Assembly: GCF_020782115.1 (NCBI RefSeq)
Contig: NZ_JAJGMW010000030.1
Span: forward strand, 1-49,387
Length of the DNA: 49,387 nt
Origin: Leeuwenhoekiella parthenopeia
Lineage (GTDB): Bacteria; Bacteroidota; Bacteroidia; Flavobacteriales; Flavobacteriaceae
Direction of reading: 5' to 3'
Within the stretch, counting starts at the first letter, position 1, and the number at the start of each line of letters is the position of its first letter. The notes below the pieces were generated by a model that was not told the DNA's origin, ran no database searches, and saw only the letters and a program-made list of their open reading frames with translations. A program made the position numbers and the translations under genes. Positions 46,933 to 49,387 of this stretch are shown in pieces.

Positions 46933-46954
46933 TTATCGCTTCTGAACACGATAA
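46933..46954. promoter_or_regulatory. Operator-like site A: TTATCG-N10-CGATAA
   Basis: A perfect inverted repeat (TTATCG at 46933-46938, CGATAA at 46949-46954) four bases after the ggt stop. A half-site CGATAA follows at 46977-46982. Confidence 0.6.
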
Positions 46955-46984
46955 TTTAATTTATTGCCTTTAGATGCGATAATG

Positions 46985-47250
46985 TCATTGTGTTATTTGT
47001 TAATGGTTAAGCGTTAATGGATTGTTTTAAAAAATTCTGCATTCTGAATTGATTATTGAGTAGTTTCTTATTTCTTGTTTTAAATAATTCTGCATTCCTA
47101 ATTCTGAATTGATCATTGAGTTATTCAGTTATTTAAAAAAACAGAAAACCGAAAATTGTGAACTGTGATTGTAAACTGAAAACTGCCCACTGAGACTGAG
47201 ACTGAGAACTGAAAACTGCCCACTGAGACTGAAAACTGAGAACTAGAAAA
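46985..47250. repeat. Decayed simple repeats between ggt and satD
   Basis: No gene. Two families of short direct repeats: AATTCTGCATTC followed by CTGAATTGAT (about 47031 and 47085), and GAAAACTGCCCACTGAGACT (about 47178 and 47211). A related ACTGCCTACTGCAACTG stretch occurs at about 43047, beside the large repeat array. These look like decayed or slipped filler sequence. Confidence 0.6.
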
Positions 47251-47258
47251 AATTGCAA

Positions 47259-47280
47259 TTATCGCATTATAATACGATAT
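47259..47280. promoter_or_regulatory. Operator-like site B: TTATCG-N10-CGATAT
   Basis: Same layout as site A, 38 bases upstream of the satD start. Its start is 28 bases before site C. Confidence 0.65.
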
Positions 47281-47286
47281 TTACCA

Positions 47287-47308
47287 TTATCGTCTCTAAA
47301 TACGATAC
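47287..47308. promoter_or_regulatory. Operator-like site C: TTATCG-N10-CGATAC
   Basis: Third site of identical layout, ending 9 bases before the satD ATG at 47318. The inner arms extend to TATCGT/ACGATA. Binding here would block transcription start or translation start. Confidence 0.65.
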
Positions 47309-47317
47309 CGAACATTT

Positions 47318-47911
47318 ATGACCGCTATATTAACCGCAGATATCATCAATTCGCGAACGCAGCAAAACTGGCTTCCGGTATTGAAAGCCGTGCTTAACCG
47401 CCTGGGTGACGAACCTAAAGACTGGGAGATTTACCGGGGCGACAGCTTTCAGCTTGAGGTAAAACCTACAGAAGCCTTGTATTCCGCCTTACTAATCAAA
47501 AGTGCTGTTAAAAGTCTGGATGGTGTAGATGTGCGCATCGCCATAGGTCTGGGAGAGAAGACTCACGACGCGGCTAAAATCACAGAAGCTAACGGAAGCG
47601 CTTTTGTAAACAGCGGCACCTGTTTTGACCGACTTAAAAAACAAACCCTCGCCCTGCAAAGCGACAATGCTGATTTTGACACGCAATTCAACCTCATTCT
47701 CGAGTTGGCCTGCCTGACGATGGACAACTGGACGCCGGTGAGCGCGCAGGTGTTTCACCAAAAGCTGCTGCACCCGCAGCTCAATCAAACCGAACTGAGC
47801 GAGATGCTGGGCAAATCGCAAAGCACCATTAGCGCTACCCTGCACCGCGCGGGGTATGACGAACTCACCAAAATGCTTCAGTACTACAGCCAAACCTTAA
47901 ACAATCACTAA
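47318..47911 (+). CDS. satD: SatD-family DNA-binding regulator
   Basis: A 197-residue protein of the SatD family. The N-terminus MTAILTADIINSRTQQNWLP and the following WEIYRGDSFQLEV, DVRIAIGLGE and ANGSAFVNSGTCFDRLKK are the family pattern. Asp8 (ADIINS) and Asp42 (RGDSF) resemble the metal-binding residues of nucleotide-cyclase-type folds; this comparison is my inference. The C-terminal region (about 155-178, NQTELSEMLGKSQSTISATL) is a helix-turn-helix. Three sites of TTATCG-N10-CGATAn lie upstream, so it probably controls its own transcription. The DUF3307 gene begins at the base after its stop codon. Confidence 0.82.
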   Translation: MTAILTADIINSRTQQNWLPVLKAVLNRLGDEPKDWEIYRGDSFQLEVKPTEALYSALLIKSAVKSLDGVDVRIAIGLGEKTHDAAKITEANGSAFVNSGTCFDRLKKQTLALQSDNADFDTQFNLILELACLTMDNWTPVSAQVFHQKLLHPQLNQTELSEMLGKSQSTISATLHRAGYDELTKMLQYYSQTLNNH

Positions 47912-48652
47912 ATGCTCGCACTCGCTCTAAAATTGCTGCTCGCTCACATTCTGGGAGACTTTGTACTGCAGCCCACCCGTTGGGTAAAAGACAAGCGCAA
48001 AAAGGGATTTCGCTCGCCGTATCTGTTGGCGCACATCGGCGTACATCTGCTGGCTTTGCTGGTGCTTTTGCAGTTTGACAGCCGCTATTTTTTAGGCATC
48101 GCCTTTATAGGTATAACCCACTACGCTATAGACCTGCTTAAGATCATATACACGACCAAAAAGAACAGTACCCCATTGTTCATTGCAGATCAGATCGCGC
48201 ATCTGCTGGTGCTTAATCTGGTGCTGTATTACTACACGCCTTATACGATAGACTTTGATGCGCTGTACCAGCCTCTAGTTTTACTGGTGCTCACCCTATT
48301 GTTTTTTGTAACCTATGTCGCCGGGATTTTAATGCGCCTTATTTTACAACCCTGGCAGGAAGCCATCGAACCTTCTAAAAAAGAGAAACTCAAAGTCAAA
48401 AACACCTCTCTGGCCGGTGCCGGAAAAATCATCGGGATGCTTGAGCGCCTGTTTGTTTTCGCTTTTATCCTCCTCAACGCCTGGTCTGCCATTGGCTTTT
48501 TGATCACGGCCAAGTCGGTTTTTCGTTTTGGGGATCTTACCGAAGGAAAAAACCGCCAGCTTACCGAATATGTATTGATAGGAACCCTCCTCAGCTTTGG
48601 CCTGGCCATAGGTGCCGGACTGCTTTTTAATTACCTGCTCCCGTATTTATAG
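47912..48652 (+). CDS. DUF3307 membrane protein
   Basis: A 246-residue protein with about six hydrophobic helices. The start LALKLLLAHILGDFVLQPTR followed by WVKDKRKKGFRSPYLLAHIG, and the HYAIDLLKI segment, mark DUF3307. A second hydrophobic half contains LVLTLLFFVTYVAGILMRLI and ends with LLSFGLAIGAGLLFNYLLPY. Function unknown. It follows satD without a gap, so the two share a transcript and the SatD-type regulator likely controls it. Conserved His and Asp residues in the first helices (AHILGDF, HYAIDLL) could bind metal. Confidence 0.85.
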   Translation: MLALALKLLLAHILGDFVLQPTRWVKDKRKKGFRSPYLLAHIGVHLLALLVLLQFDSRYFLGIAFIGITHYAIDLLKIIYTTKKNSTPLFIADQIAHLLVLNLVLYYYTPYTIDFDALYQPLVLLVLTLLFFVTYVAGILMRLILQPWQEAIEPSKKEKLKVKNTSLAGAGKIIGMLERLFVFAFILLNAWSAIGFLITAKSVFRFGDLTEGKNRQLTEYVLIGTLLSFGLAIGAGLLFNYLLPYL

Positions 48653-49277: not shown

Positions 49278-49319
49278 TCTGTCTGAAATAGATTTAAACA
49301 TTAATTTTATTCAGACAGA
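49278..49319 (+). promoter_or_regulatory. Inverted repeat TCTGTCTGA/TCAGACAGA ahead of the transposase start
   Basis: Arms at 49278-49286 and 49311-49319 form a 9-bp stem around a 24-base loop, ending 3 bases before the ATG. In a read-through transcript it would fold over the start region; such hairpins limit translation of some transposases. Confidence 0.55.
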
Positions 49320-49322
49320 ACC

Positions 49323-49387
49323 ATGAGAAAAGAGGAACAGACAGAATTTGAAAAGAAGGTGCTTGACCAGTTCATGTCGGGCAAGAA
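49323..49387 (+). CDS. IS256-family transposase (partial, N-terminal 21 residues)
   Basis: The frame starts MRKEEQTEFEKKVLDQFMSG and then K, and is cut by the window edge. The start (a charged helix leading into a SGK-type segment before GA-FAPLLK in the family) is typical of IS256/Mutator-type transposases, which use a DDE catalytic domain. The catalytic residues lie outside this window. Confidence 0.75.
   Translation, partial: MRKEEQTEFEKKVLDQFMSGK

Follow-up and report, generated by a model that had tools for sequence, protein, structure and literature searches.

Tandem palindromes upstream of satD in Flavobacteriaceae as probable operators of an autoregulatory SatD protein

The tandem palindromes that precede satD in Leeuwenhoekiella parthenopeia are in all probability operators for SatD itself, which would act as a local autorepressor of the satD–DUF3307 pair, equipped with a cyclase/GGDEF-like sensor domain and bound to an operator that drifts fast between genomes; we put the probability of this reading at roughly 0.85. 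A regular array is present upstream of satD across the family, and the inner triplet of its arms covaries with the recognition helix of SatD.

The window, by which we mean the whole 49,387-nucleotide stretch analysed, contains two pairs of putative operator units, one directly 3' of ggt and the other directly 5' of satD (47318..47911, + strand). The first pair is made up of unit A (46933..46954, TTATCG-N10-CGATAA), which starts 4 bases past the last base of the ggt stop with 3 bases between, and unit A2 (46961..46982, TTATTG-N10-CGATAA, one mismatch). The second comprises unit B (47259..47280, TTATCG-N10-CGATAT), starting 59 bp 5' of the satD ATG, and unit C (47287..47308, TTATCG-N10-CGATAC). 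No strand is assigned to these units, and the phase within both pairs is 28 bp (46933/46961 and 47259/47287). Unit A and the TTATTG of A2 also occur in the two sister loci L002 and L003, in which B and C are likewise conserved. A preliminary description of this DNA had placed A, B and C correctly, including their TTATCG/CGATA arms, the 10-base gap, the 28-bp offset between the starts of B and C and the position of A 4 bases past the ggt stop. Its count of three sites was too low, as A2, 28 bp from A and with one mismatch, had been missed; the half-site it reported at 46977 does exist, but is the right arm of this complete fourth site (46961-46982). When up to one mismatch is allowed, the window yields 10 strand-matches against 0.72 expected from shuffles, the four palindromic sites being counted twice.

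The two pairs are separated by an AT-rich spacer (46983..47258, no strand assigned) that varies in length among the sisters and holds decayed repeats of the ACTGAGACTGAGAACTGAAAACTGCCC type, apparently inserted between the halves of the operator array. In both sisters the A/A2 pair again stands right after ggt. The earlier proposal of a DNA loop from site A, in which A/A2 would be looped to B/C, is in keeping with the conservation of both pairs in the two sister genomes. However, the distance between the pairs is not constant (298 bp in the window, 219 and 94 bp in its two closest sisters), and in L004, from the same genus, the 28-bp repeats lie together in a single ggt–satD gap of approximately 110 bp. 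We therefore consider the loop unlikely, and dropped it as a feature of fixed length. Inserted sequence has probably split an originally contiguous array of the window into two pairs. At its end (49280-49387), the contig stops within a new open frame (MRKEEQTEFEKK...), which is preceded by an inverted-repeat-like stretch, GTCTGAAATAG...ATTCAGACAGA, possibly the end of an insertion sequence.

SatD homologues were found in 50 of 99 relatives and in 238 of the 397 genomes of the family. For the loci of the first search, satD was found again by tblastn in 49/50, with DUF3307 downstream on the same strand in 49/49; the long frame that follows satD overlaps it in 71/74 named loci, usually by 4 or 7 bases. 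A total of 269 loci was gathered, from which 30 that derived from a motif search were set aside. satD was found in the remaining 239, and 210 of these had distinct proteins and sufficient upstream DNA. These 210 loci were chosen on SatD similarity, not on the repeats, and include Algoriphagus, Lacihabitans, Rhodonellum, Parapedobacter and Bacteroidales MAGs. A scan of the satD upstreams of relatives found the literal TTATCG-N10-CGATA in 38/210 only (within 330 bp upstream of satD), although the array layout proved to be general. Taken by itself, this low count would have argued against operators, absence of the motif in relatives having been the refuting condition first proposed. The literal motif is a misleading test because relatives keep the layout and change the arm letters, and it was replaced by a test of layout.

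Within the 180 bp preceding satD, base identity at a lag of 28 is 0.469 compared with 0.317 for dinucleotide shuffles (z ~109; 210 upstreams), with further peaks at lags 56 and 84. The same measure gives 26.3% within the coding region. A search for tandem palindromes with free gap and period found a best period of 28 in 184/210 upstreams and of 29 in 15/210, against 11/210 and 13/210 respectively once shuffled (199/210 versus 24/210 for the two periods together). In the period-28 loci the gap is even in at least 182/184 and equals 8 in 111; the unit is therefore a palindrome with six-base arms and eight bases between. In the period-29 loci the inner gap is still 8 in 9/15, with the spacer grown to 9, and this constancy suggests that the convergent palindrome is the site of a dimer. 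Each unit would thus be a palindrome of 20 bp, TATNNN-N8-NNNATA, to which a SatD dimer presumably binds, and with units every 28 bp the half-sites would alternate in direction at 14-bp steps. Neighbouring units within an array share arm letters. Arrays contain 3 units in 132 loci, 4 in 45, 2 in 26, 5 in 5 and 6 in 2 (n = 210), a loose count that tolerates up to 5/14 arm mismatches. For 25 more distant SatD loci, a lag of 29 stands out (z 14.6 against mononucleotide shuffles), with 28 or 29 as the highest-scoring lag in 19 of them. In distant Bacteroidota satD genes (L270-L299) the array period is mostly 29 and the arms differ markedly, for example AACC...GGTT types.

The frequency of single sites in the 4.4-Mb genome is not far above chance: with up to one mismatch, 71 forward and 80 reverse matches compare with 58 and 47 for the reversed pattern. 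Exact single sites outside the satD locus occur at 10 places, all within open frames of 215-897 codons; these were taken as chance, and a wider regulon built on them was rejected. By contrast, a pair of units phased by 28 bp, scanned with up to 3 mismatches over its 20 defined bases, is present at two places only in this genome, both at the satD locus, while a control pattern scanned alongside gave no match in the same 4.4 Mb. Three further genomes, G031 (TATCAC), G040 (TATTCC) and G007 (TATCTG), have their matching tandem pattern only upstream of satD, such that the array is confined to satD in all four genomes scanned. The decayed repeats of the spacer 46983-47258 and the near-chance frequency of single sites might have pointed to chance or mobile-element repeats devoid of a regulatory role; this is refuted, to near certainty, by a tandem pattern unique in the genome and a layout conserved over the sampled loci while the letters change. 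SatD would accordingly be viewed as a single-target regulator, whose operator and helix could drift together between genomes; a regulator of this kind can change its site freely, which would account for the fast drift of the operator.

Occupation of the DNA between the −33 and −7 elements is typical of a repressor operator. In flavobacteria the −7 consensus for sigma-A is TAnnTTTG, as given in the portion of PMC9723704 covered, and this sequence was found in 133/210 satD upstreams as compared with a mean of 35 in mononucleotide shuffles; 77/210 have no exact copy. In the period-28 loci, 137 of 176 TAnnTTTG matches fall at one unit phase, where the last TA of the unit is followed by the TTTG of the spacer, a phase lock that is partly a consequence of the constancy of TA in the arm. 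In 68 of the 133, TAnnTTTG is preceded by a TTG 20 bp upstream, and there the TTTG of the preceding spacer falls in the repeat. Many arrays contain a −33/−7 promoter. In the window, a possible −7 element, GATATTTA (47276..47283, + strand), reaches into the B–C spacer and is a weak candidate (6/8 to TAnnTTTG), its counterpart in sister L003 being GATATTTG (7/8). Where a unit fills the DNA between −33 and −7, this argues for repression, and because units lie between and over these elements in many relatives, we infer that SatD binds the array and represses the satD–DUF3307 operon.

Alternatively, SatD could bind the array and activate its own promoter, or switch roles, with units upstream of −33 recruiting RNA polymerase and the downstream unit having a tuning function. 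Arrays of 2-6 units indeed reach well upstream of the promoter, and A/A2 is far upstream of B/C yet conserved in both sisters. This is set against the finding that the consensus −7 box, where found, is mostly inside the array, with a palindrome between −33 and −7, and we regard activation as a minority prospect, clearly less probable than repression. A role at the RNA level has also been considered, as the self-complementary arms could form weak hairpins and serve as an attenuator or RNA thermometer in a 5' leader. It is extremely improbable. Where a −7 box is found, the array mostly overlaps or precedes it and would be largely untranscribed from there; arm letters are shared between neighbouring units, and these letters track the recognition helix, which RNA pairing does not require.

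A pair of TAT-type units was found in 207/210 loci, and the 197 above the score limit form the covariation set; the 13/210 left out are loci with no clear TAT-type pair, including L004, whose arms are too AT-rich. The outer TAT hardly varies, its three bases being kept in 195, 197 and 196 of the 197 loci respectively, in part because the caller required them. The inner triplet varies by genome, with 26 kinds over the 197 loci, 11 of them seen once: TAG 41, CTG 30, TCC 24, CGT 18, CGG 16, AAG 14, CAC 9, ATG 7 and others. A quick tree built from SatD residues 1-140 requires 55 changes at the first two variable bases, a figure inflated by tree error. Shuffle-corrected mutual information with the triplet is highest, among 197 columns, for residues 173 (1.50 bits), 167 (0.94) and 170 (0.84), followed by 156 and 174. 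When divided by column entropy, the order becomes 173, 161, 170, 54, 167, 169, in which 173 is still first but columns 161 and 54 are among the first four. Residues 167-174 lie in or beside the predicted recognition helix (168-178).

The associations resemble a residue-to-base code. E173 occurs with C at base 4 (61/64), Q173 with A at base 5 (59/59) and K173 with C at base 6 (29/34), while T, N, S or M at 173 is accompanied by CAC or CAT in 13/17. Given E173, N170 goes with CTG (26/33) and T170 with CG (19/22). The window SatD combines T170 and A173 with the operator triplet CGT; outside its own group of three members, S170/A173 is found with CG in 6/6, and N170/A173 with ATG, ATA or TCG.

In the case of satD, regulator gene and promoter are inherited together, which gives many SatD columns some correlation with the operator. 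The array could therefore be read by a different DNA-binding protein, with the link to the SatD helix reflecting shared ancestry only. We compared 97 disjoint sister pairs matched on the N-terminal domain, 38 with an operator switch and 59 with the same operator (58 after one was dropped). Column 173 differs in 21/38 switch pairs against 4/58 same pairs (p 1.7e-7), column 170 in 19/38 against 3/58 (p 4.3e-7) and column 174 in 11/38 against 0/58 (p 1.4e-5). Ranked by enrichment for change in switch pairs, columns 173, 170, 174, 169 and 167 come first (p 1.7e-7 to 9.5e-4), and the best column outside the helix is 155 (p 1.4e-3); these p values are uncorrected for 197 columns, and only 173, 170 and 174 pass Bonferroni. 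A change in one or more of these five helix columns is seen in 29/38 switch pairs against 13/59 same pairs. Mean identity is 0.70 for switch pairs and 0.78 for same pairs, a difference that should act on all columns alike. The pair L204/L093, with N-terminal domains 81% identical, illustrates the trend, its change from ATG to TCC being accompanied by N170D and E173K. In 9/38 switch pairs none of the five helix columns has changed; these nine include three TAG/AAG pairs and the closest switch pair, L118/L116 (CGG versus CTG, N-terminal domains 96% identical).

The triplet was also predicted from nearest neighbours. With no neighbours barred, six helix residues predict 120/197 triplets correctly, compared with 101/197 for the N-terminal domain. 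When neighbours of at least 0.7 identity are barred the figures are 102 and 53 (n = 197), and with the barrier at 0.6 they are 82 and 42 (n = 197). When N-terminal identity of 0.5 or above is barred, the helix drops to 26/197 and the N-terminal domain to 9; at this barrier the helix fraction of 0.131 exceeds the mean of 200 random six-column sets (0.058, maximum 0.174), although at least one set does better. Contrasts on well-supported (treekit starred) branches number only 2 to 5, which leaves significance out of reach, and are mostly in the predicted direction. The scarcity of strict tree-based contrasts and the nine switch pairs lacking a change in the five columns leave some room for a different reader of the array. 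Against this, the helix columns are conspicuous among the 197, with L204/L093 as an example from the close pairs, and the four genomes scanned contain the array pattern at satD alone; we judge another regulator very unlikely. The comparisons strongly support that operator letters track the residues of the SatD recognition helix. The original suggestion of an autoregulatory operator set read by the C-terminal helix-turn-helix of SatD is strongly supported by this covariation, together with the conserved layout.

A C-terminal helix-turn-helix had likewise been proposed from the sequence, and is borne out by a confident model of SatD (mean pLDDT 96.3), with helices at 157-164 and 168-178 and a recognition helix that starts QSTISATLHRA. 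Weak matches to several helix-turn-helix families were found, and columns 167, 169, 170, 173 and 174 are the candidate specificity positions. Residues 21-178 match Pfam PF16264 with 25.6 bits (E 1.1e-5), which is under the curated cut-off of 29 bits. Among the aligned relatives 28/34 match PF16264 at E <=0.1 (best 2.9e-13), and a profile of the window's relatives matches 27/30 distant PF16264 loci. A PF16264 member over the cut-off is present in 59/296 genomes of the phylum, some of them from the window's family.

The N-terminal domain of SatD (approximately residues 1-115, encoded by 47318-47662) appears to have a palm-like fold resembling that of cyclases, GGDEF proteins and mCpol, with two conserved aspartates. 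The top PDB match of the model in Foldseek is the adenylyl cyclase MA1120 (4wp9; E 1.1e-3, prob 1.0), and the matches run from class III adenylyl cyclases through GGDEF, cUMP synthase and GTP cyclohydrolase III to mCpol, with 7r65 and 9pd0 also among the top ones; prob is mostly near 1, but TM is ~0.4 and none passes E 0.001. There is no Pfam cyclase model among the SatD matches. D8, located in strand 1, is found in 196/197 SatD sequences (one gap) and D42, in the turn between strands 2 and 3, in 197/197, at positions where palm/cyclase folds carry their metal-binding aspartates; two further alignments also show both residues as invariant. SatD may thus resemble class III cyclases, GGDEF proteins, cUMP synthase and mCpol in its fold and in D8 and D42. 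The likely position of the class III catalytic asparagine, by contrast, seems not to be conserved: column 98, assigned to it by motif and not by superposition, is N in 84/197 and otherwise F, R, Y, H, L or Q. The N-terminal domain is probably a nucleotide-binding sensor as opposed to an active cyclase, and could sense a nucleotide that releases SatD from DNA.

The DUF3307 gene (47912..48652, + strand) abuts satD and encodes a predicted membrane protein; its membrane location and its co-transcription with satD are presumed. The model of this protein is confident and all-helical (mean pLDDT 92), with no useful PDB match (best E 1.5). A role in anti-phage defence, with a CBASS- or Pycsar-like cyclase and a membrane effector, was considered and dropped, as PADLOC models matched neither SatD nor the DUF3307 protein at E <=1. 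SatD has no match in phage records at E <=0.01, while distant homologues are found in 10 plasmid records. Three of these records were inspected. Tandem palindromes with other arms and a period of 28-29 apparently lie upstream of the homologues on a 3.8-kb Klebsiella pneumoniae plasmid (L302) and a Pseudoalteromonas megaplasmid (L300), with lag 29 top in the former and lag 28 tied top in the latter, both judged by eye with no shuffle control. No tandem palindromes were seen by eye upstream of the Segatella plasmid homologue.

The name SatD stands for secretion and acid tolerance D of Streptococcus mutans. In the literature covered, satD carries this acid-tolerance label and is described for Streptococcus pyogenes as accessory yet essential (PMC11323703, in part), SatD appears in an annotation paper on F. 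nucleatum (PMC10326533, in part), and DUF3307 appears in one phage paper (PMC8504454). No operator or DNA-binding role for SatD is mentioned in the parts of PMC11323703 and PMC10326533 covered, nor among the matches listed, in a body of literature that scarcely extends to subscription journals. The window SatD shares homology with the SatD family (PF16264), to which the present analysis adds the array and the proposed operator role.

Were this role to hold, the SatD family would gain a function as a local DNA-binding autoregulator, beyond its acid-tolerance label, and the uncharacterised membrane protein DUF3307 would be tied to a promoter whose signal becomes screenable. The 197 natural operator/regulator pairs, with 26 inner triplets, provide a residue-to-base code that can be tested, as well as a useful example of a regulator and its sites altering in concert while function is retained. 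A broader and more tentative proposal, which we hold to be possible but less likely than its negation, is that SatD proteins are nucleotide-sensing palm-fold autorepressors throughout the phylum and beyond, that they form a polymer, not isolated dimers, along the alternating half-sites at 14-bp steps, and that DUF3307 is the effector of a nucleotide-linked stress response. On this proposal, operator specificity would turn over unusually fast because each SatD has a single target promoter, and a natural, near-complete recognition code would result.

Local autorepressors such as lambda cI/Cro and those of the TetR/LacI type have palindromic operators for a helix-turn-helix dimer over their own promoter, and the operators proposed for SatD similarly overlap the promoter of the regulator. 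In contrast to these systems, the SatD arrays are regular, with a 28- or 29-bp period and 2-6 units, their half-sites alternate at 14-bp steps, and the −33/−7 elements lie within the repeat in many genomes. SatD furthermore presents a large natural series of operator specificities. A related approach, Prot-DNA-Korr, was applied to MerR, where contact residues are identified from the mutual information that columns of the regulator share with positions in the operator, as described in the part of PMC5045206 covered. In that case both the regulators and the regulation were already known, whereas SatD comes to this comparison with no such role in the literature covered.
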